Source of the DNA: Streptomyces chattanoogensis
GTDB lineage: Bacteria; Actinomycetota; Actinomycetes; Streptomycetales; Streptomycetaceae
Assembly (NCBI RefSeq): GCF_001294335.1
Contig: NZ_LGKG01000101.1
Span: 1-64,000, forward strand
Length of the DNA stretch: 64,000 nucleotides
Direction of reading: 5' to 3'
The notes under the pieces are model-generated. The model did no database searches, was not told where the DNA came from, and saw nothing but the letters and a program-made list of their open reading frames with translations. Of the stretch, positions 9,201-42,239 are shown in pieces (within the stretch, counting starts at the first letter, position 1; the number at the start of each line of letters is the position of its first letter). The position numbers were made by a program, and so were the translations under genes.

Positions 9201-12200
9201 CTGCCGCTGACCCCGAACGGCAAACTGGACCGCAAGGCCCTGCCGGCTCCTGACTACACCGCGCTGAGCTGTGGCCGGGCCCCACGCACACCTCGTGAAG
9301 ACGTCCTGTGTGGTCTGTTCGCCGAGGTGCTGGGTGTGCCGCGGGTCGGTATCGACGACGGTTTCTTCGATCTCGGCGGGCATTCGCTGCTGGTCACCAG
9401 GCTCGTCAGCCGGATCCGCAGCGTGCTGGGTGTTGAGGTGGCCATCGCCACGGTCTTCGACGCACCCACGGTGGCGGGACTGGCCCGGCGGCTGCAAGAC
9501 GAGGACCAGGTGCGTCCGGCGCTCGTCCCGATTCCGCGCCCGGACAGCATTCCGCTGTCCTTTGCCCAGCAGCGGCTGTGGTTCCTGTACAAGCTCGAAG
9601 GGCCCTCACCCACCTACAACTCGCCCCGGGTGCTCCGGCTCTCCGGATCGGTCGACCGGCATGCCCTGCACGCCGCACTGCTCGACGTCATCGACCGGCA
9701 CGAGTCGCTGCGCACGGTCTTCCCCGAGCAGGACGGCGAGCCCCGGCAGCGGGTCATCGCGACCGACCAGGTGCGGCTGGGCTGGGAGAACCACACGGTC
9801 ACGGAAGGGGACCTGCCGGCCGCACTGGCGGCCGCGGCCCGCTACGCGTTCGACCTCGCCACTGAAATACCGGTCCGTGTGGCCCTGTTCGACCTGGTGG
9901 ACGACCCCACGGGGGAACGTGGTGGGGCAGCAGCCGGCGACGAGCATGTCCTGATGGTGCTGCAGCACCACATCGCCAGCGACGGCTGGTCCGTCGGGCC
10001 GCTGGCCCGCGACATCATGACGGCTTACTCCGCACGCTGTGCAGGTCAGGCCCCGGACTGGGCGCCGCTCCCCGTGCAGTACGCGGACTACACGCTGTGG
10101 CAGCGGGAGCTGCTCGGCGCGGAGTCCGACCCGGACAGCGTCTTCGCCCAACAGGTCGGTTACTGGACCGAGCAGCTGGCCGGACTCCCCGAGGTCATCA
10201 ACTTGCCGACGGACCGTCCGCGGCCGGCGACGGCCTCGTACGCCGGCTCCCACGCCACTTTCGCCCTGGACGGCGAGCTGCACCGGAACCTCCGGGAGTT
10301 GGCGGCGGACTGCGGCGCCACTCTGTTCATGGTGTTGCAGGCAGGGATGGCGGCTTTGTTGACCCGGCTGGGTGCGGGTACCGATATTCCGCTGGGCAGC
10401 GGCATCGCCGGGCGCACCGACGGAGCTCTGGACGATCTCATCGGGTTCTTCGTGAATACGTTGGTGCTGCGCACCGACACTTCGGGGGACCCTGAGTTCG
10501 CGGATCTCGTGGAGCGGGTCCGGAAGACGAGCCTGGCGGCATACGCCCACCAAGACGTGCCGTTCGAGTATCTGGTGGAGGTGCTCAACCCGAAGCGCTC
10601 CCCGGCTCATCACCCGCTGTTCCAGGTCAACCTCATCCTGCAGAATCTGCCCGAGGCGCGGTTCGAACTGCCGGGATTGGACGCCCGGTCGCAGTCGGTC
10701 GGTACCGGCGCTGCCCGCTATGACCTGATGTTCTCGCTCCACGAAGTCCTGGATGGGGACGGTGTGCCGAGTGGGCTGGCGGGTCAGGTGGAGTTCGCCA
10801 CCGACCTGTTCGATGAGGGGACCGTGCGGAGGTTGGTGCACCGCTGGGAGCGGCTGCTGCGTGCCGTGACCGCTGATCCCGGCACCCGGATCGGGCAGGT
10901 TGAGCTAGTCGGGGCGGTGGAGCGTGAGGCCGTACTGGCTGGTGGGCGTGGTCCCGTTGCCGAGCAGGCAGGCCTGTTTCCGGATCTGTTTGCCGAGCAG
11001 GTCGCCCGTACGCCCGAGGCGGTTGCGGTGACGGGTGCCGGGCTGCGCCTGTCGTATCGCGAGCTCGACGAGCGGTCCAACCGGTTGGCGCGGTGGCTGG
11101 TGGGCCGCGGTGTGGGTCCGGAGTCGGTGGTGGCGTTGGCGTTGCCCCGCACGCCGGAGCTGTTGGTGGCGCTGCTGGGCGTACTGAAGGCCGGCGGCGC
11201 ATATCTTCCGGTGGATCCGGAGTATCCGGCGGAGCGGATCGGCCTGATGCTGGCCGACGCCGAGCCCGTTCTGCTGTTGACGGATGCCCGGACGGCGGGA
11301 GTGCTGCCGGAGTCGGGTGTGGCGTGGGTGGTGCTCGATGAGGCACAGACAGCCGCGGCGGTGTCGGAGCTGCCGGGGCGGGCGCTGTCTGACGCCGAGC
11401 AGATTGTTCCGTTGCGAGCGGCGCACGCCGCGTATGTGATCTACACGTCCGGTTCGACGAGTCGGTCCAAGGGCGTGGTGGTGCCGCACGAGGGTCTGGC
11501 GAATTATCTGCGGTGGTGTGAGGGTGCCTATCCCGGGCTCTGCGGTGGTGCGGTGCTGCATTCGTCGGTGTCCTTCGACCTGACCGTCACCACTCTCTTC
11601 GCTCCGCTTGCCGTGGGCGGGACGGTTCATGTCAGCGGGCTGGACGAGTTGGATCCGGGGCTGTGGGCGGGTCTGCCGGCGCCGACATTTGTCAAGGCCA
11701 CGCCGAGTCACCTTCCACTGCTGGAGTCGATGCCGGTGGATGTGCTGGCCGACGGCGATCTGGTGCTGGGTGGTGAACAGCTGCTGGGTGCGGCGCTGGC
11801 GCCGTGGCGGGCCGCGCACCCGGGTGTCACGGTGATCAATGAGTACGGGCCCACCGAGGCCACCGTGGGCTGCGTCGTGCACCGGGTCGCGGCCGGGGAC
11901 GCTGATCCGGCCGGCGCGGTGTTGATCGGTGCGCCGTCGACGAACATGGGTGTCTACGTCCTGGATTCGTGGCTGCGTCCTGTGCCGGTCGGTGTCGGGG
12001 GTGAGCTCTACCTGGCGGGGGCGCAGCTTGCCCGCGGCTATCTGGGACGTCCTGGGCTGACCGCGGAGCGGTTTGTGGCGTGTCCTTTCGAGCCGGGCGT
12101 GCGGATGTATCGCACGGGCGATTTGGTGCGGTGGAACGGTGACGGTGAGCTGGAGTTCGTGGGGCGTGTCGATGAGCAGGTGAAGGTGCGGGGTTTCCGT

Positions 12201-34026: not shown

Positions 34027-36069
34027 TTACGCCGGGCCGATTGCACGCCCGACTCCGGCGGCTACCTCCGGGTGAGCGAGGTACTCCTGGATGTCGTGCG
34101 CCCGGTCGCGCGCGTTGGCGACGGCTACTTCGGTCAGCTTGCCCCAGGTGTCTCCGAGCGGGCAGCCGACGGTGACGGTATCCGTCGGGCACCAAGCGTT
34201 GAACCAGTCGGTGACCCGTTCGGGGCGTTTGGCTCCGGGGACCAGCAGCCGGTCGTAGACGGCATTCATGCCCAGTGGGCTGCCGACCGTGACGAGCAGA
34301 TCAACCGCCAGCTCTTCCGGAAGCTTGCGGATGAGGTCCATGCCGACGACGGTGCCGAGGCTGTGAGTGACCAGGACGAGATTGCCGGAGGACGGCGTCG
34401 TCTCCAGCACACAGTCCAGGACTGCTTGGCGGACGTGCTGATTGTCGAGGTACGCGGCGACATCGCTGAGGATCGTGGCAATGACCCATTCATCCAGATC
34501 GGTCTTGGCTGCCAGCCAGCTCAGCTGTCCCTGGAGGGCACCAACCAGCTTGCTCCCGAACCCCTCGGTGGCAAGCAGACCATCCCGCGGCATGTCTGCC
34601 TTTGCGGCAGCCTCGGCGATGAGTTGCTCGTAGGTGTCTCTGGCGGTACCGGCGGGTGCGAACGCTTCCGCAGTGGCCCCGGTGGTCAGTTCCTCGAAAT
34701 GGCGCGGGACGGCTTCGTTCCGCTCCAGGGCGTCCATCAACCTGTCGCCGTAGTAAGGGAACCAGGCATCCGCTGGGTCGATCGGAGCGATTCCGGCGCG
34801 GGTGAGTCCGTGATTCAGCCCAGCGGTCCAGTTGCGGCGAAGCGCCTCGGGGTCTTTGTTCTGCTGGCTCCTGCCGTGCAGGAAGACCAGGTGCCGCGTG
34901 CCGCCGAAGGCAGTGCTCCGGGCGCGCAGGCCGGTACGGTCCACTCCCTCACGTGCAGGTCGTGGGGCAACAGGTGGAGCCGCTGCCCGGGTCGGCTGGG
35001 CGACGACGGCCTTCTGCTGGAGCCCGGAGTCCGAACCCATCTCAGCCAGGACCGCACGGCGTGCAGGATTGAGCTCAAGCGCCGCGAGGCGCTTCAGGAT
35101 CGAACTGATGCGGATACCTTCGTTCGAGATGTACTCGACGGCGTTGTCACCGTCCTCACGCCGCCAGAGCTGGCCATCCTTGCGCAGGATTCGTCCCTGG
35201 CCGTCTGTTTTCGGCACCCCGAGGTGGTGCAGCGCCACCACTTCCCATTGGTCATTGAAGACCGGAGACCCGGAATTGCCAGGCTCGGTGTCGGTCTTGT
35301 AGTGGAGGTAGTCATCCAGACGTACCAGGAGACCGTTGTCCCGGATGGCGATTTCCTTGAAGCGGCCGTTTGGGTGCCCGATGATGTTCACCGCTTCGCC
35401 GAGAACCAGTGTGCCCTGTTGGACACTCAGCTTGTTCCAGCCGAACTTCTCGCCCGGCGTGGGGGCGCCGGTGGTGTTGGCGAGCTGAACGAGGGCGAAG
35501 TCGAGCCGCTCGTCCGCTATGAAGAATGCGCTGGGGTCGAGTTCGATCCGGGCCGTTTGATCGGGCGTGTTGTCGATGGTGACCTGGGCATTGAACTCTA
35601 CGAAGCAGTTTTGAGCGGTTGCTTCGTCGGGCAGCACGTGGTGGTTGGTCATCAGCAGACGGGGCGACACCAGGAAGCCGGTGCCCTGTGGCAGCTCGCG
35701 GCCGTTGTCGCGTACCGAGATCCGCGCGACGGTGCCGGCGACTCGGACGCCGCGTGGCAGGAAGCTCCAGGCCTGCAGTTCGTTGGACACCCCAATGATG
35801 CGCTCATTCGTACCGGGCATATCCAACGGCTCTGCGTAAAGCTTCGCCACGGCAGCCGCGGGGGGAACTCCGCTCCGGTCGAGCAGCCGTGTTGCGCGGG
35901 CGGCGATGGCCTCCGGCGAATCCGGGAACTTCACCCCGGCATCCAGGTCCCGCTGTGTGGCCTGCCGCTCGGTACTCGTCTCGTGGTATCGACGGGCGGC
36001 GGCCTTGGCTTGCGTCTCGAATTCCTTGAGTGTTCGCTGTGTTGCTGGCATGGGAGCCACCATCTTCAT
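34027..36069 (-). CDS. Trypsin-like serine peptidase fused to an alpha/beta hydrolase
   Basis: 680 residues from an ATG preceded by GACGAGG; a longer frame reaches 36216 but lacks homology. The N-terminal half is a trypsin-fold peptidase of the glutamyl-endopeptidase type. Its apparent triad is H144 (TNHHV), D190 (RLDFALVQL) and S266 (GNSGSPV). The C-terminal half (about 390-680) is an alpha/beta hydrolase with HLVFLHGRS, the nucleophile elbow VTHSLGT and a late LLVTVGSPLG strand. No signal peptide or membrane segment is visible, so both activities would be cytoplasmic or exported by an unknown route. It is the last gene of the minus-strand set headed by the PatG-like subtilase. Confidence 0.88.
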   Translation of the reverse strand: MKMVAPMPATQRTLKEFETQAKAAARRYHETSTERQATQRDLDAGVKFPDSPEAIAARATRLLDRSGVPPAAAVAKLYAEPLDMPGTNERIIGVSNELQAWSFLPRGVRVAGTVARISVRDNGRELPQGTGFLVSPRLLMTNHHVLPDEATAQNCFVEFNAQVTIDNTPDQTARIELDPSAFFIADERLDFALVQLANTTGAPTPGEKFGWNKLSVQQGTLVLGEAVNIIGHPNGRFKEIAIRDNGLLVRLDDYLHYKTDTEPGNSGSPVFNDQWEVVALHHLGVPKTDGQGRILRKDGQLWRREDGDNAVEYISNEGIRISSILKRLAALELNPARRAVLAEMGSDSGLQQKAVVAQPTRAAAPPVAPRPAREGVDRTGLRARSTAFGGTRHLVFLHGRSQQNKDPEALRRNWTAGLNHGLTRAGIAPIDPADAWFPYYGDRLMDALERNEAVPRHFEELTTGATAEAFAPAGTARDTYEQLIAEAAAKADMPRDGLLATEGFGSKLVGALQGQLSWLAAKTDLDEWVIATILSDVAAYLDNQHVRQAVLDCVLETTPSSGNLVLVTHSLGTVVGMDLIRKLPEELAVDLLVTVGSPLGMNAVYDRLLVPGAKRPERVTDWFNAWCPTDTVTVGCPLGDTWGKLTEVAVANARDRAHDIQEYLAHPEVAAGVGRAIGPA

Positions 36070-36217
36070 TGCCTCGTCGAGTGTGCCTGCGTTCCAGGGG
36101 CAAGCACAGGGACTCGTGACGCACCAAGTGAGGTGAATTCTGGGAATGTGACGGAGTAAACGCCGAGTGGGTAACAGTGGATGCTCGTCACGCCATCCTT
36201 CCCCGGAAATGATCATT

Positions 36218-37147
36218 TCAGGGGAAGGAGCTTATCCCCAGGTTGTCCAGCTGGGTGACCATGGCGTCAACCGTCTCCTGGGGGACGTCGTCGATGTTCT
36301 GTGCCGTTGGTGTCTGTGTGAGTCCGCTGGCGCTTTGGAACGAAACCAGGGCTGACCGCGTACCGGGGCCGAAAACTCCGTCGAGTCCGTTTGGGCTGAA
36401 GTCAAGTGCCTCCAGGGCGGTCTGCAGTCCGATGGTCAAGTTTACTGGGATGGGAAAATTGCCGGACCGCATGTTTGCATCGAGCTTCTGTGAGGGGTCG
36501 AAAACCAGCTGAGTGAAGTCGCCTGGTGGTGGTGCGGCCATCCAGCCGGCGAGGGTGAAGAGCAGTCCGTTGCGGACGTTCCGTGGGATGACCCCGGGGT
36601 TTCCGGCCTCCGTCATCTTGCACTCCCGCGCCATGGTCAGCCATTCCTCGGTCGCTGCGGCGGCCTGGAACAAGGGGAACTTGAAAAGAGGGCCCAAGGC
36701 CCACGCCATGCTGAGCAGGCCGAGCTGTCCGTCAGCAGGCCACTCGTCGAGGTTGGCGAACGGTGCCCGAGTTCGCAGGGATGTCTCGAAACTGTCCAGC
36801 TTGCTGGATATCAGCTCATCAATCGTCGAGTCAGTGATGCGCAGCCGTGTGATGGCTTCTTTCTGAGTCAGTGTGGCGAAGGCTGTTCCGCTGAATTTGA
36901 CCGTTTGATATTCGGCCTCTATTTCGGTGTGACTGGCTGTCGCGTGCGTGGTCTTATCGAACCAAGGCAAGGTGAAAATGTCGGGGAGCGGGTGTGGGTT
37001 GGTGCCGAAGTGGCTGGCATCGTCGGCGTCGAGCAGGTTTCCCACTCCAGTGGAGACCAGGCTTTTGACGTCCAGGTACATGAACCGGACACGGCCTTCC
37101 AGTGGCTCACTGAACGGGATGAATGCATTTTGAACGCTCTGGTGCAT
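36218..37147 (-). CDS. T4/pesticin-type lysozyme with C-terminal peptidoglycan-binding domain
   Basis: 309 residues. The N-terminus matches the T4-lysozyme-like fold: E17 in PLEGRVRFMYLD, D26, and T33 in VSTGVGNLLD fit the Glu-Asp-Thr catalytic set. Residues ~240-300 form a peptidoglycan-binding domain (LQTALEALDFSPNGLDGVFGPGTRSAL). It would cut the glycan backbone of peptidoglycan. There is no signal peptide, so delivery needs a holin-like partner, cell lysis or another export route. It lies between the peptide genes and the peptidase-hydrolase gene on the same strand, with 148-171-base gaps. No other phage genes are nearby. Confidence 0.85.
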   Translation of the reverse strand: MHQSVQNAFIPFSEPLEGRVRFMYLDVKSLVSTGVGNLLDADDASHFGTNPHPLPDIFTLPWFDKTTHATASHTEIEAEYQTVKFSGTAFATLTQKEAITRLRITDSTIDELISSKLDSFETSLRTRAPFANLDEWPADGQLGLLSMAWALGPLFKFPLFQAAAATEEWLTMARECKMTEAGNPGVIPRNVRNGLLFTLAGWMAAPPPGDFTQLVFDPSQKLDANMRSGNFPIPVNLTIGLQTALEALDFSPNGLDGVFGPGTRSALVSFQSASGLTQTPTAQNIDDVPQETVDAMVTQLDNLGISSFP

Positions 37148-37318: not shown

Positions 37319-37546
37319 TCAGAGCAGGCCTCCCCACACGGTTCCCGGAACCACTTGGCATTCCTCGCCACGGGGGTCGCGGCACAGGTACGGGGGCGGG
37401 TCGCCGACATCGTCACCGAAGTTGCCGCCCACCTCTTTCCTGGCCAGGGAGGGCTGTCCGTCGTCGAGGAACGGCCGCAGAACGAGGAACGGCTCGATGG
37501 GCTCCGAGCGGTCAATCTCGTTCTGGACCGGCAAGTTGAATGGCAT
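37319..37546 (-). CDS. Small peptide, possible divergent fifth member of the peptide family
   Basis: 75 residues from an ATG preceded by GGGAGGCAGGCC, a strong ribosome binding site. It begins MPFNLPVQNEIDR; the LPVQ tetrapeptide also occurs in the peptide encoded at 38527-38712. Otherwise it lacks the QAPP block and the G-x-E-A site of the four related peptides. The C-terminal half is Gly/Pro-rich with two cysteines (YLCRDPRGEECQ) and ends VWGGLL. Its position within the run and its good start support a real gene; membership of the family is tentative. Confidence 0.55.
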   Translation of the reverse strand: MPFNLPVQNEIDRSEPIEPFLVLRPFLDDGQPSLARKEVGGNFGDDVGDPPPYLCRDPRGEECQVVPGTVWGGLL

Positions 37547-37625
37547 GGCCTGCCTCCCAACGTCGGCGCACCGGGTTGGGCGCCAGTGACTGGGGGCGAG
37601 CCACGGTCACCGGCGCGATGACGGT

Positions 37626-37808
37626 TCAGATCTGCAGAATCTTGGTGAGCGTGTCGAGGAAATCGCTCGCCTCGACGCCCCTGGTGTCGTCGTGGCCACC
37701 AGCGGACGTGTGTCCGGTGCGGTCGATGGGCGGCGCCTGCCGCGGCATCTCCAACGTGGTCGGCTTGGCAGGCCGCTCCACGTCTCGTTCGTTCTGGTCG
37801 AACTTCAT
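37626..37808 (-). CDS. Precursor-like peptide 1 with GVEAS site
   Basis: 60 residues, ATG preceded by GGAAGGAAGG. Residues 1-30 are nearly identical to peptide 2 (MKFDQNERDVER, then TTLEMPRQAPPIDR). A variable middle follows, then GVEAS at 44-48, which matches the G(L/V)E(A/P)S recognition sequence cut by the PatA protease in cyanobactin precursors. The remaining tail DFLDTLTKILQI is amphipathic as a helix. I infer a leader-core precursor processed by the PatG-like subtilase encoded upstream. Confidence 0.8.
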   Translation of the reverse strand: MKFDQNERDVERPAKPTTLEMPRQAPPIDRTGHTSAGGHDDTRGVEASDFLDTLTKILQI

Positions 37809-37925
37809 GGCCTTCCTTCCGTCATGTCGTCATGTCATTGACCGTGAAGGGTCATGCGTCATGTCGTCGGGGGGCGTCAGAGCGCCGGTAACGGGGGAGT
37901 GCCACCGTCAAGGCGCGGTGACGGT

Positions 37926-38111
37926 TCAAATCGGGAGGAATTTGGAGAGGATCCCGGTGAGCAGCCCGTTCGCGTCGACGCCCTGGTTGTCGCCGTACAT
38001 GCCCGGCGTCGTGTGTCCGGTGCGGTCGATGGGCGGCGCCTGCCGCGGCATCTCCAGCGTGGTCGGCTTGGTGAGCCGCTCCACGTCTCGTTCGTTCTGG
38101 TCGAACTTCAT
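37926..38111 (-). CDS. Precursor-like peptide 2 with GVDAN site
   Basis: 61 residues, ATG preceded by GAAGGAAGG. It shares MKFDQNERDVER and TLEMPRQAPPIDRTGHTTPG with its neighbours and the segment PGMYGDNQGVDAN with peptide 3. GVDAN (44-48) occupies the position of GVEAS in peptide 1. The tail GLLTGILSKFLPI has hydrophobic residues at 2, 3, 6, 7, 10, 11 and 13, an amphipathic helix pattern like short membrane-active peptides. No cysteines, so any modification would have to be cleavage, cyclization or prenylation-like rather than thiazoline formation. Confidence 0.8.
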   Translation of the reverse strand: MKFDQNERDVERLTKPTTLEMPRQAPPIDRTGHTTPGMYGDNQGVDANGLLTGILSKFLPI

Positions 38112-38207
38112 GGCCTTCCTTCTTCCGTAGTGCCGTCATGTGATGTCGGCTACGGGTGTCACGGTGCCGATGACCGGGCGGACCGCTGTCACCGGCACGG
38201 TGGCGGT

Positions 38208-38393
38208 TCAGATGGGGAGCACCTTTGCGAGCATGTCGGTGAGGAACCCGTTCGCGTCGACGCCCTGGTTGTCGCCGTACATGCCCGGCGTGCTGTGTCC
38301 GGTGCGGTCGATGGGCGGCGCCTGCCGCGGCATCTCCAGCGTGGCGGGCTGCTTCGGCTGCTCCGCTACTTGCTCCATCCGGTCATTCATCAT
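38208..38393 (-). CDS. Precursor-like peptide 3 with GVDAN site
   Basis: 61 residues from tandem ATGs at 38393 and 38390 preceded by GGAAGGAAGAAG; an upstream in-frame extension to 38489 is not conserved in the family. The first 17 residues differ from peptides 1 and 2, but LEMPRQAPPIDRTGHSTPG and MYGDNQGVDAN are essentially the same. The tail GFLTDMLAKVLPI repeats the hydrophobic spacing of peptide 2. Leader conserved and tail variable in the hydrophilic positions is the pattern expected for a family of cleaved precursors. Confidence 0.8.
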   Translation of the reverse strand: MMNDRMEQVAEQPKQPATLEMPRQAPPIDRTGHSTPGMYGDNQGVDANGFLTDMLAKVLPI

Positions 38394-38526
38394 GGTCTTC
38401 TTCCTTCCACTCTGTCGGCCTGCCGGCGGGCTGCACCCGTCGGCACCGTCCACCCACGCACTGCCGTTGCAGCGGTGGTGGCTCAGCAATCTCCCGTACC
38501 GCCTGACAGGTCATCGCCCTCACCCG

Positions 38527-38712
38527 TCACGCCGCAAGGCCGCCGCGGGCGAAGCACATCTGCCGTGCGATCCCTGTCATGTCGGCGCAGCGCGCGGCCG
38601 CTTCGATGCCGTCTCCGCTGTTCTGCGCCGCTGGGGCGTTCCACCCGTCCCGACGCACCGGCGGTGCCTGGACCGGGAGGGCGATCTTCCGCTGCTTCTC
38701 CGGATCCTTCAT
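38527..38712 (-). CDS. Precursor-like peptide 4 with GIEAA site and two-cysteine tail
   Basis: 61 residues, ATG at 38712, 39 bases after the subtilase stop. It is the most divergent of the four but keeps LPVQAPPVRRD (compare MPRQAPPIDRT) and a G-I-E-A-A site at residues 35-39. The following 22-residue tail starts ARCADMTG and ends RGGLAA, with cysteines at its positions 3 and 14, so a disulfide or other cross-link is possible. It is the first peptide gene after the protease, so likely translated from the same message. Confidence 0.75.
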   Translation of the reverse strand: MKDPEKQRKIALPVQAPPVRRDGWNAPAAQNSGDGIEAAARCADMTGIARQMCFARGGLAA

Positions 38713-38751
38713 GGTCTTCTCTCTTCGTTGTCTCGGCCATCGGTGACACGT

Positions 38752-41247
38752 TCAGATGTCACCGAGGAACGTGTGGACCGGTGCCAGGCTGACCGGAGGC
38801 AGGTCGCTGACGTCGATCGTGAACAGGTAGTTGACCTTCGACCGCCGGTCGTCCTCGGGGTCCATGAAGGTGACGATGACGTCCTGACAGTCCGAGCCGA
38901 TCCGGCAGTACGGACTCTTGGAGACCCGGACGGAATCCAGCGCGTAGAAGTTGTTCGCCGACCCCGGTACGTGCTGGGCGGACAGCAGTCCATCCGCGAT
39001 GGACTTCCCCAGCTGGAACGCATTGGTCCCCGCGTAGTTCATAGCCCGGTCGGCGGAGCTCTGCCCCAGGTTGCGGAACTGGTAGTAGACCTTGTCCAGG
39101 AGCGCGCGGATGGTCTTCTTGAGGTCGTCCGGGTTCGTGGTGTTCTCGTTGCGGGGATCCTTGGTGACCGCCTCCACCACGGCGTTGACCAGCAAGGTCT
39201 CGTTCCAGGTGGAGACCCCGCGGGCCATGACCTCGACCACGGGGACGACCTGCCCGGAGAACAGCCGGACCGTTCGGTCCGTGAGTACTCCGGGGATCGA
39301 CACCCGGGAGATCAGGCCCAGGTCGTCGTCGGGCTTGACCTGTCCCGCGATCGCCTCCCGGAAGATCTTGTAGACCATCGACACAGGCGGGTAGGAGTGG
39401 TCGGCGACCAGGTAGTCCGCGAGCTTCTGCGGATCGAGCGCGGCCTCCTTGGCCAAGCGCTTCGCCTCGTCCGGGTCGGCGACGACCGGCCCGCCCCAGT
39501 TCATGCCGGCGGCCGGCTCAGCCTCCAGTGCGTAGATCGGCGTACGATCCAACTCCAGCGTCCAGGTCAGTTTGTCGGACTCCCACGGATTCATCGACAG
39601 GTAGTCGCTCAGCTGAATCGGGTTGTACACGCTTGGTTGGGTGAAGGACGGCTCGCCGTTCGGACCCGGTTCCCCCGGGATCCACGGCATGAGCTGGCGG
39701 AAAGTGTCCCTTCGGGCTTCGGTCCGAAAGTCGAACCCGATCGTGCCGATCGCGTAGACGAGGGGGCCTCCGGCCTTTCCTTTGCATGTGCATGAACCGT
39801 TGCCTTCGTCTCCGCACGAGGGACGGACACCGTGCCTGAGCCCACTGCCGACGGGGGGCGGTCCCCCTGGGGGAATGGGTGCCATGGCCGATACCTCTGC
39901 ACCCGCGACCCCGGCTGCTTCATGTGCGGGGACATCCACGCCACTGGCGTCCATGGCCCTGACTCCTTCCAGCGATGTCGCGCGGGACGTCCCGGGTTCA
40001 GGGAGTTCTCCCGCAGGGCCGGCTCCTGGATCAGGGACGCCGCGCGTTTCCGTGCTTCCGGCGGGTACCGGAGCAGGCGGGGGCGGGGGTATCTCGGTCC
40101 GTGCTTCCTCACCCGCAGTCTCGGCTGCTTCGTGTGCAGCGACGTCTGTACGATCGGTGTCCATGGCACTGACTCCCTCTGTCATTTCCGAGTGGGACGT
40201 CTCCGTGTGGGGCGCCTGCGCTGGGGACATCCCGAGCGCAGGGGGTGCACCAGCGGGGTTGACTCCCGGTTCGGCGGCGGTGAACTGCGTCTGCCGCACG
40301 CCCTGTGGCGGCGTAGGCGTCACCCGTATTGCAGACACATCGGATTGCCTTACGGAGGTGCTTCCCCGCCCCACGATGAGGTCGTAGGCCCTCCCTGCAT
40401 CCAGGGTCCCGACGAGCCGGCGTCGGCACTCGGGGGCGTCATCGGGGGAGCAGGGGGCAGCGGATGCGGTCTTGAGGATGGCACTGGCCACTGCCTTGGG
40501 ATCCGCGTCGTGGCCTTCGCGGAGCTGAGCGGCCACGAGCAGCGCGGCCACTCCCGATACCACAGGAGTGGCGAAGCTGCTGCCGGTCAGCGCCGCTCGC
40601 CCGCCACCAGGTGCGGCGCCCCAGACATCCTGGCCCGGCGCCAGCACACCATTCGTGTGGTACGCCTTGCCCCAGTTGTTGATCGTCAACGGCGCGCCGT
40701 CGCTACCCAGCGCTCCGACCGCCAGCACCGACGACACGGCAGCCGGCACCTGCAGGCAGTCGCATCCGTCGTTGCCCACGGCTGCGACGACGAGGACGCC
40801 GCTGTCGTCGCACCGCCGCAGGGCACGTTCCAGCATGCTGTCGGCTTGTGCGTCCGGTGTGCGCTCGCCGCCACTGATGTTGATGATGTGTGCCCCCTCC
40901 TGGACTGCCCGCTCGATTGCCCTGGCCAAATCCAGCTGGGGCACGCGGCCTTCCTGCGTGTCACGGAACACCGGGAGGATCAGTCCGCGGCAACGGGGGG
41001 CAAGACCGACGACAGGGCTACCCCGCTGGCCGAACAGCAGACTGGTGACGTGTGTGCCATGCAGCGACATCCGTCCTCGCCCGGCGGGTTCGTCCACGAG
41101 CGTGTTCAGCCTCGTGAGGTGTGCGCCATCGAAGCACGGGTGGGACAGATCGACAGGTCCGTCGAGCACTGCTACCCGCACCCGGGCGTCACCGAGAAGG
41201 TCCTTCTGCCGCAGTGCAGGGGTCTGAAGGATCGATCGGGCTTCCAC
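38752..41247 (-). CDS. Subtilisin-like protease with PatG-like C-terminal domain
   Basis: 831 residues from a GTG preceded by GGAGG. The N-terminal S8 domain (1-295) has an intact triad: D29 (VAVLDGPVDLSHP), H63 (HGTHV) and S224 (GSSFATP), with oxyanion N159 (AVGND). A Pro/Ala-rich linker (300-480) contains an imperfect 27-residue repeat. Residues ~479-831 resemble the C-terminal domain of cyanobactin maturation proteases PatA/PatG: a Cys cluster (CTCKG), VYAIGTIGFDFRTEARRD, LTWTLELDRTPIYALEAEP and RTVRLFSGQVVPVVE. In cyanobactin pathways these proteases cut precursor leaders and macrocyclize cores. There is no signal peptide. Directly downstream are peptide genes with PatA-like cleavage sites, making this the probable maturation protease. 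Confidence 0.92.
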   Translation of the reverse strand: MEARSILQTPALRQKDLLGDARVRVAVLDGPVDLSHPCFDGAHLTRLNTLVDEPAGRGRMSLHGTHVTSLLFGQRGSPVVGLAPRCRGLILPVFRDTQEGRVPQLDLARAIERAVQEGAHIINISGGERTPDAQADSMLERALRRCDDSGVLVVAAVGNDGCDCLQVPAAVSSVLAVGALGSDGAPLTINNWGKAYHTNGVLAPGQDVWGAAPGGGRAALTGSSFATPVVSGVAALLVAAQLREGHDADPKAVASAILKTASAAPCSPDDAPECRRRLVGTLDAGRAYDLIVGRGSTSVRQSDVSAIRVTPTPPQGVRQTQFTAAEPGVNPAGAPPALGMSPAQAPHTETSHSEMTEGVSAMDTDRTDVAAHEAAETAGEEARTEIPPPPPAPVPAGSTETRGVPDPGAGPAGELPEPGTSRATSLEGVRAMDASGVDVPAHEAAGVAGAEVSAMAPIPPGGPPPVGSGLRHGVRPSCGDEGNGSCTCKGKAGGPLVYAIGTIGFDFRTEARRDTFRQLMPWIPGEPGPNGEPSFTQPSVYNPIQLSDYLSMNPWESDKLTWTLELDRTPIYALEAEPAAGMNWGGPVVADPDEAKRLAKEAALDPQKLADYLVADHSYPPVSMVYKIFREAIAGQVKPDDDLGLISRVSIPGVLTDRTVRLFSGQVVPVVEVMARGVSTWNETLLVNAVVEAVTKDPRNENTTNPDDLKKTIRALLDKVYYQFRNLGQSSADRAMNYAGTNAFQLGKSIADGLLSAQHVPGSANNFYALDSVRVSKSPYCRIGSDCQDVIVTFMDPEDDRRSKVNYLFTIDVSDLPPVSLAPVHTFLGDI

Positions 41248-41486
41248 TCCGACCTCCTCTCCGCCAATGGCACGGGACGCGGTAGCCGTTCAGCACCAGA
41301 CTCCGACCCGCTCATCCCGCGGGCGTCCCCCGAACCGTCCAAAGGCGTTCCGCAAACGTCTCTGGCGCGTCTCCTGTCCGTGGATCCGCCGGTCAGACGC
41401 AGTTGCTCAGTGGGCGAAAGAAGGTCGAACCGGCCAGGAGAGGGGGGTGTAAAACACCTTCGCTCCGGTGCCAGCGGCATATCCAG
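41248..41486. promoter_or_regulatory. Divergent control region with 11-bp-spaced CGT repeats, candidate SARP site
   Basis: A ~240-base interval lies between the PatG-like protease start and the SARP start. At 41346, 41357, 41368 and 41379 the trinucleotide CGT recurs with exact 11-base spacing (CGTTCC, CGTCTC, CGTCTC, CGTGGA), and a fifth copy lies 10 bases upstream at 41336. SARP regulators bind short direct repeats spaced by one helical turn, so this is a plausible operator for the divergent SARP acting on the protease operon. Confidence 0.5.
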
Positions 41487-42239
41487 ATGCGCGAACCAGC
41501 GGCCGGTCGCAAAGTGGTGCATGTGAATTCGAAGAGCGCACACCTAGAACTACTTGGGGTTTTCGAGTTCGCACACGACGGAAGCCGCATCCCCCTCCCT
41601 CTGGGAACCCAGCGCCTGTTGGCCTTACTCGCCCTGCAAAAGCACGGTGTCTACAGGGGGGCAGCTGCCGAACAGCTCTGGCCCGACTGCACACCCAGCC
41701 GCGCAGCGGCGAACCTGCGGTCTGCCCTTTGTCAAGGCAGACGGATACGGTCCGTAGCTGTAATCGACAGCGTCGGCCGCCGTCTGCGACTCTCGCCCTC
41801 GGTGGACGTCGACCTCTATCGAATGCGGAAGACAGCGCAGGAAATCACTGCCGGGCTCAGCCCGCTGCCGGCGGATTGCGAGGCCGTTGTCAACGAGCTG
41901 AACCAGGAGCTGCTGCCGGGCTGGCCGGATGACTGGCTCATTCTGGAACGCGAGCACTGGGAGCAAGCACGCCTCCACGCTCTTGAGAGCCTCGCCCACC
42001 AGCTGCAGACGGCAAAGCAGTATCTGCCCGCGCTCCAGGCGGCAACGACTGCCATCGCTATCAATCCGATCCGGGAAACCGCTCACCGCATCGTCATTGA
42101 GGTACACGTAGCCGAGGGCAACACGGCCTGCGCGCTCAAGCACTACCACAACTACCAGGAGCTACTGCAGCAGGAACTTGAAGTGTCTCCCTCACAGCAG
42201 ATGAACCAGCTGGTGCAGGACCTGATCACTACTACATAG
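41487..42239 (+). CDS. SARP/AfsR-type transcriptional activator with BTAD domain
   Basis: About 250 residues. The N-terminal winged helix carries LELLGVFEF, the IPLPLGTQRLLALLALQ recognition region and AAEQLWPDCTPSRAAANLRSAL. It is followed by a bacterial transcriptional activation domain with TPR-like helices (VDVDLYRM to LVQDLI). This is the small SARP architecture without an ATPase module. The start is uncertain: ATG 41487 is used here, while GTGs at 41514-41523 would begin just before the conserved domain. It is divergent from the PatG-like protease gene, and SARPs typically activate nearby biosynthetic operons, so it is the likely activator of the peptide system. Confidence 0.88.
   Translation: MREPAAGRKVVHVNSKSAHLELLGVFEFAHDGSRIPLPLGTQRLLALLALQKHGVYRGAAAEQLWPDCTPSRAAANLRSALCQGRRIRSVAVIDSVGRRLRLSPSVDVDLYRMRKTAQEITAGLSPLPADCEAVVNELNQELLPGWPDDWLILEREHWEQARLHALESLAHQLQTAKQYLPALQAATTAIAINPIRETAHRIVIEVHVAEGNTACALKHYHNYQELLQQELEVSPSQQMNQLVQDLITTT

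Follow-up and report, generated by a model that had tools for sequence, protein, structure and literature searches.

A PatA-type subtilase gene followed by block-bearing small peptide genes in Streptomyces chattanoogensis: a probable macrocyclase-less relative of cyanobactin systems

The window, a 64,000-nucleotide stretch of DNA from Streptomyces chattanoogensis, contains a gene for a PatA-type subtilase and, downstream of it on the same strand, five small open reading frames (ORFs): one of type A, three of type B and one of type C. Types A and B share an N-terminal P-x-Q-x-x-P-V-x-R block and a G-[VI]-[ED]-A-x site, and type C has a shortened block. We consider this locus to be, quite probably, a PatA-only, macrocyclase-less relative of the cyanobactin systems that releases linear membrane-active peptides. 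In such a system, a SARP regulator would turn on one gene run; in each type A or B precursor, a spacer would separate the block from a PatA-type site (G-V-E/D-A-S/N/D), with a short core beyond it; and cleavage by the subtilase after that site would yield unmodified linear peptides that are presumably exported. The type B cores would form amphipathic or hydrophobic helices, most likely membrane-acting, and could serve as a bacteriocin-like weapon or as a signal. The block would be a common mark of everything that PatA-type proteases handle, and type C would be the counterpart of PatB. The genes are as follows.

41403..42239, + strand: SARP/BTAD regulator (PF03704), divergent from the protease; true start probably downstream of the TTG
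38752..41247, - strand: PatA-type subtilase, 831 aa (TIGR03895, PF00082, PF18047, PF18065; PDB and Foldseek matches)
38527..38712, - strand: type A peptide, 61 aa, LPVQAPPVRR block, GIEAA site, C-x10-C ending CADMTGIARQMC
38208..38393, - strand: type B precursor 1, MPRQAPPIDR block, GVDAN site, tail GFLTDMLAKVLPI
37926..38111, - strand: type B precursor 2, MPRQAPPIDR block, GVDAN site, tail GLLTGILSKFLPI
37626..37808, - strand: type B precursor 3, MPRQAPPIDR block, GVEAS site, tail DFLDTLTKILQI
37319..37546, - strand: type C, 75 aa, PatB-like, shortened block LPVQNEIDR, GGNFGDDVGDPPP region
36218..37147, - strand: accessory PG_binding_1 protein (PF01471), with homologues in 3 other loci
34027..36216, - strand: accessory trypsin-like protease (Trypsin_2, PF13365) with a long C-terminal part

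The protease matched the PatA/PatG maturation protease family TIGR03895 at 574.6 bits, above the curated cut-off of 421.05, and also matched the subtilase family PF00082. The initial annotation had read its C-terminal domain as that of PatA/PatG and proposed a profile search; PatG_C (PF18065, 111.9 bits, cut-off 25.9) and PatG_D (PF18047, 27.6 bits, cut-off 27) both matched, in agreement with that reading. The protein consists of a catalytic domain (~1-295), with D29, H63 and S224 presumably the catalytic residues by assignment from subtilases, a disordered linker (~297-491) and the PatG_D/PatG_C part (~495-831). In a PDB sequence search, the nearest solved sequence was PatA (4h6v, 319 bits) and the nearest to the C-terminal part was the PatG DUF (4uvq, 174 bits), with the PatG macrocyclase (4aks) reaching only 166 bits. 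A Foldseek search with the predicted model gave 3zxy (PatA) at TMt 0.94 and 4uvq at TMt 0.90. The window protease is thus PatA-like rather than macrocyclase-like, which supports our preferred reading. The protease has at least 1530 relatives at E <= 0.001, a number that may include other subtilases; PatG_D and PatG_C are both present in 119 of the 120 family proteins among the matches listed, and databases already label the family 'cyanobactin maturation protease'.

It is conceivable that this one protease both cleaves and cyclises, so that the products are head-to-tail cyclic peptides as in cyanobactins. The protease belongs to the same superfamily as PatG, and the same cut would free the N-terminus of the product. 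However, its closest relative is PatA and not the PatG macrocyclase, and a profile search of the whole genome found no second TIGR03895 protease above the cut-off, which counts in favour of linear products and agrees with the earlier claim that a separate PatG macrocyclase is lacking. Moreover, in the window precursors nothing comes after the hydrophobic core, neither a follower sequence nor a SYDG/FAGDDAE-like ending, whereas many cyanobactin-type precursors end in SYDGDDAE or FAGDDAE. We therefore regard cyclisation as very unlikely, and of the two products envisaged initially, linear peptides made by cleavage alone are the better fit. As the initial annotation would have it, no YcaO was found in the window; the single YcaO match of the genome lies on another contig. 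The LAELSEEAL leader element is likewise absent from the window peptides. As far as tested, then, the locus is not a classical cyanobactin cluster: YcaO (in the window), a second protease and the SYDG/FAGDDAE-like ending are all missing.

The small ORFs themselves had been described as four related peptides of ~60 residues. The three type B peptides are indeed close relatives, with an identical MPRQAPPIDR block, but the first peptide (38527-38712) is a separate, conserved type A, and a fifth, PatB-like gene (37319-37546) inside the annotated region had gone uncounted. Both motifs noted earlier are in the sequence: QAPP-x-x-R as the block, and G-[VI]-[ED]-A-x as the sites GIEAA, GVDAN, GVDAN and GVEAS. 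For type B precursor 1, the start previously placed at TTG 38489 is most likely ATG 38393, with GGAAGAAG upstream of it. None of the five ORFs matched Pfam, and the only NCBIfam match among them was a chance one to the long form of type B precursor 1 (E 0.15). TIGR04220, the PatB family, did not match the type C ORF of the window, whose resemblance to PatB is distant.

We looked for the same arrangement in other genomes. A genome-contig scan with a single protein gave 16 pattern matches and no confirmed locus, and an alignment-based scan of genome contigs gave 76 protease loci. The actinomycete set comprises 45 partly redundant loci, namely the window, 36 genome contigs, 3 plasmids and 5 further stretches; L112 and L117 (another layout) stand outside this count. 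Genes of type A, B or C were recognised by pattern in 37 of the 45, the outcome of a synteny check proposed at the outset and a point in favour of our preferred reading. Type A occurs in 22 loci, type B in 35, type C in 21 and all three in 10. Among the eight loci with no peptides, seven stop 0-2 bp past the protease and one (L064) holds a 270-aa protease fragment. Gene order is conserved: type A precedes type B in 20/20 loci having both, and type C follows the last type B in 16/20. Types A and C are represented by 22 peptides in 22 loci and 21 in 21, respectively, and type B by 76 peptides. The type A pattern undercounts, since a type A-like peptide in L043 was not counted and three pattern-negative genomes (G006, G167 and G176; loci L116, L050 and L118) match the type A profile. 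The genera among the matches include Streptomyces, Kitasatospora, Amycolatopsis, Saccharopolyspora, Geodermatophilus and Mycolicibacterium.

The type A profile also provided a check that is independent of the block pattern. A TIGR03895 match at E <= 1e-50 was present in 15 of 391 genomes of the order, above the cut-off in 12 of the 15. Strong type A matches (E 1e-17 or better) occurred in 12 of the 391 genomes, all of them among the 15 with the protease, and all 12 matches lie close to the TIGR03895 match, which again favours our preferred reading. The protease genomes lacking a strong type A match are G117, G195 and G313. Among the 376 genomes with no protease match, the 16 candidates scored per genome, a search of limited reach, included no type A match of comparable strength; one of these genomes (G136) has a weak match (E 1.4e-4) with a stop codon inside. 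In databases, 194 type A homologues were found at E <= 0.01, and the 120 among the matches listed are nameless or named 'hypothetical protein' or 'Uncharacterized protein'.

Some loci have features of their own. In G026:C1, the cluster is present at 10713 and at 7071925 of a contig of 7078240, near both chromosome ends, and the copies probably lie in terminal inverted repeats. The protease is also on five Streptomyces plasmid records, two of which are from one species and equal in length. Three Mycolicibacterium loci (L101, L102 and L107) have, downstream of the protease, a 128-aa protein with two block-like sequences adjoining a type B peptide. L117 (G117) has a diverged protease split in two ORFs and a PatB-like ORF (FPPQAPPVHRRQTIPAHPT...HGADPHAP).

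The block is concentrated beside the protease. Its strict form was present in 156 of the 962 ORFs (35-130 aa) located <=4 kb downstream of the protease and on its strand, compared with 25 of 4067 controls (7/1278, 3/1418 and 15/1371 in the three control regions), with the proviso of some redundancy among the loci and of a pattern picked after the peptides had been seen. A looser form occurs in 246 of the 962 downstream ORFs and in 236 of the 4067 controls. The enrichment is not due to chance. The presence of the block at every kind of locus is partly by design, because the protease served to find all of these loci.

The same block extends beyond actinomycetes. Our scan, which was aimed at actinomycete peptides, also returned two cyanobacterial ORFs, L093 and L095; these, the only cyanobacterial PatB ORFs compared with TIGR04220, matched it at 130 and 129 bits and are PatB. 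With a looser pattern, the block was found to start many ORFs in non-actinomycete loci, along with obvious chance matches. We take some of these ORFs to be cyanobactin precursors (MDKQNLMPQAAQPVNRITTGQ...LAELSEEAL...SYDGDDAE; MKTKKLTPRNVAPVQR...) and others to be of PatB type (MKLPKQSPPVKRPDLI...). Judged from sequence, the block that heads the actinomycete peptides is the one that heads cyanobactin precursors and PatB in cyanobacteria, a likeness overlooked initially and one that argues for our preferred reading. Related peptides next to one such protease in the fetched stretch were observed in Richelia (L067) and in MAGs of Spirulina (L042), Terriglobia (L063), Alteromonadaceae (L097) and Pirellulaceae (L108). 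Constructed only from actinomycete sequences, the type B profile matched L042 (5.6e-10), L067 (7.7e-10), L063 (1.3e-5) and L112 (1.8e-4), and cyanobactin-type precursors and others near E 1e-3, consistent with a relationship to cyanobactin precursors; these and the following E-values refer to the small ORF set from other loci. The type C profile gave 17 matches in other loci at E <= 1, the first seven being PatB-type by eye (E 0.0013-0.0032). The type A profile matched L042 at 2e-5 and, through the shared block, type B-like peptides at 1e-4.

If the block marks what the protease handles, the protease may recognise it. AlphaFold predictions gave no such indication. For the window protease with a type A read-through (four further paired rows), the two ten-residue stretches that contain the block had mean pLDDT of 37 and 29, and for a cyanobacterial PatA with PatB (L080; three further paired rows), they had 35 and 42. 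As tests of docking of the block on the protease, these predictions are negative but weak, given few paired rows and no interface score. In the available text of a 2014 NMR study, engineered PatE, plain or heterocyclised, was not bound by the isolated PatG DUF (PMC4259220), in assays that, in that text, did not extend to the PatA DUF or full-length PatA; we count this result and the AlphaFold predictions against our preferred reading. No convincing case emerged of a natural protein in which the block is fused to the protease or to a large protein. We also rejected the C-terminal tail of the protease (LPPVSLAPVHTFLG) as a mimic of the block; in cyanobacteria, the tail has sequences such as IPVTLGEVRSWSSPY, and among the windows of its own protein it came tenth or lower in 141 of 210 proteases and first in 4.

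We next consider the putative cleavage site. According to the available text of PMC10885120, PatA cuts after G(L/V)E(A/P)S. The window peptides fall in this class, with GVEAS exact once (in type B precursor 3, as first noted) and the near forms GVDAN, twice, and GIEAA. From the 76 type B peptides we obtained 69 distinct cores, after dropping duplicates, rows lacking the site pattern and very short tails; six of the 69 rows are cut out of register. The site has G in 68, V in 48, E in 44, A in 58 or P in 8, and then S in 21, D in 19 or N in 18, counts that are partly built in because type B was chosen with a loose site pattern. This profile is close to the PatA consensus (PMC10885120), a point for our preferred reading. 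Against this, V or E is replaced in part of the loci, and 10 of the 69 rows, from one Streptomyces clade, have GAAAS. Nine block-bearing rows were classed as 'other', two of which seem genuine by eye: one has GIEGS and the other is truncated where its contig stops.

The type B cores are 9-37 residues long (median 17), free of Cys and more hydrophobic than the spacer (mean Eisenberg hydrophobicity 0.45 versus -0.02). Their maximal hydrophobic moment exceeds the shuffled mean in 97% of cores (mean z 1.67; the sequences are related), consistent with the membrane-acting helices that we propose. By contrast, the mean net charge of -0.26 counts against that proposal: unlike many antimicrobial peptides, the cores are not cationic on average.

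Site-like sequences also occur in the protease. The last 40 residues ahead of the DUF contain a V/I-x-A/P-S/A motif in each of the 44 non-actinomycete proteases scored (10.4 expected by shuffling) and in 112 of 130 proteases from actinomycete loci and database homologues (16.9 expected), in partly redundant rows and with a pattern picked after examples had been seen. A broader pattern occurs 2.8 times per protein versus 1.2 after shuffling in the 69 scorable of the 120 homologues among the matches listed. The title of PDB entry 3zxx reads 'self-cleaved protease domain of PatA', and we infer that these proteases may likewise cleave themselves at the linker.

Such linker sites would also suit small proteins that are propeptide-like regulators or inhibitors of the protease, its real substrate lying elsewhere, for example among the accessory proteins. 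That one block is common to several different small proteins fits this idea, as does the hemopexin, peptidase or PG-binding accessory protein found nearby in many loci. We nevertheless judge it unlikely: the site matches the known PatA cut, the sequence past the site is variable and amphipathic, as expected of product cores, and the several copies per locus resemble products.

The neighbouring genes bear on how linear peptides might act. A SARP homologue is present in 37 of the 45 actinomycete loci, the window included. In the window, it is divergent from the protease and the peptide genes are on the protease strand, both as initially described; in other loci the orientation is not always divergent. 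Direct repeats between the SARP and protease genes are short and two-copy only. Homologues of the window trypsin-like protease, some partial, lie downstream of the cluster in 4 other loci, and relatives of the hemopexin-repeat protein of L036 occur in 19 loci, counting L036 and including L112, some of them matching via the repeats only. Inspection by eye of neighbour families present in >=4 loci, among filtered ORFs, revealed no recognisable peptide exporter, which counts against the release of linear peptides to the outside. Alternatively, the peptides might be released within the cell and make the membrane of the producer itself permeable, a programmed lysis that sets free the neighbouring accessory proteins. 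The cores are of membrane type; besides the lack of a recognised exporter, recurrent neighbours have PG-binding, hemopexin, M35 or trypsin domains, and the accessory proteins have no obvious signal peptide, as judged by eye only. However, these proteins vary and are missing from part of the loci, no trigger is known, and for hemopexin proteins with no second Pfam match a hydrolase role was assigned by eye. We consider such an intracellular role improbable and favour the released linear peptide.

A broader proposal, which we put forward tentatively and think possible but doubtful, is that P-x-Q-x-x-P-V-x-R is a universal tag for handling by PatA-type proteases, borne by precursors, PatB and type A across actinomycetes, cyanobacteria, acidobacteria, planctomycetes and gammaproteobacteria. 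The ancestor would then have been no ring-maker but a self-processing protease, arming membrane-active helices, possibly intracellularly, together with released accessory proteins; cyclic cyanobactins would have come later.

Among the titles and abstract openings listed from the open-licence literature, none dealt with actinomycete proteases of PatA type accompanied by peptides of this kind. The protease family has many members and is already named, yet its likely substrates carry no annotation; establishing its targets would extend the repertoire of antibiotic-producing bacteria by a widespread class of linear peptides. The available text of two papers describes the roles of PatB and of the PatA/PatG C-terminal domain as unknown (PMC4259220; PMC4663559). 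Since protease, block, site and a distantly PatB-like protein are all retained in the loci described here, they amount to a cyanobactin pathway stripped to its core. This makes the roles of PatB, the C-terminal domain and the first part of the leader testable, and the window cluster may help to explain the unexplained parts of the pathway.

We compared the locus with known systems. It combines a single PatA-like protease with precursors that end in the core, and we do not class it as a cyanobactin cluster because the macrocyclase and the C-terminal recognition sequence of the AYDG/FAGDDAE class were absent when looked for; YcaO and LAELSEEAL, features of the heterocyclised subtype, are absent from the window and from its peptides, respectively. 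A separate locus of the same genus, L112 (G313), has a pair of TIGR03895 proteases and a PatB-like ORF, and its precursor-like ORFs end in FAGDDAE; it resembles a genuine cluster for cyclic cyanobactins, here outside cyanobacteria. Cyanobactin clusters lacking a heterocyclase, which we take to be of the anacyclamide/piricyclamide type, share with the window a PatA-type protease, a P-x4-P-V-x-R precursor start and, in some, a G-V-x-A-like site; their PatB-like partner has a candidate counterpart in type C. They carry a second, macrocyclase protease and their precursors end in FAGDDAE, whereas the window has one protease only and its precursors lack a follower. Like the predicted window products, class II and leaderless bacteriocins are short, unmodified amphipathic or hydrophobic helices, with several genes per locus. 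Class II leaders are removed by a double-glycine C39 peptidase transporter, whereas here the cut is predicted to be made by a subtilase lacking an evident signal peptide (by eye), at GVEA-x. The patellamide pathway (PatA-PatG) has in common with the window the PatA catalytic domain, the PatG-type DUF and the site class G(L/V)E(A/P)S. It differs in having YcaO, PatG, LAELSEEAL and AYDG, and its cores are heterocyclised octapeptides, whereas type B cores are Cys-free predicted helices. By analogy, the window system appears to work like the first half of cyanobactin maturation.
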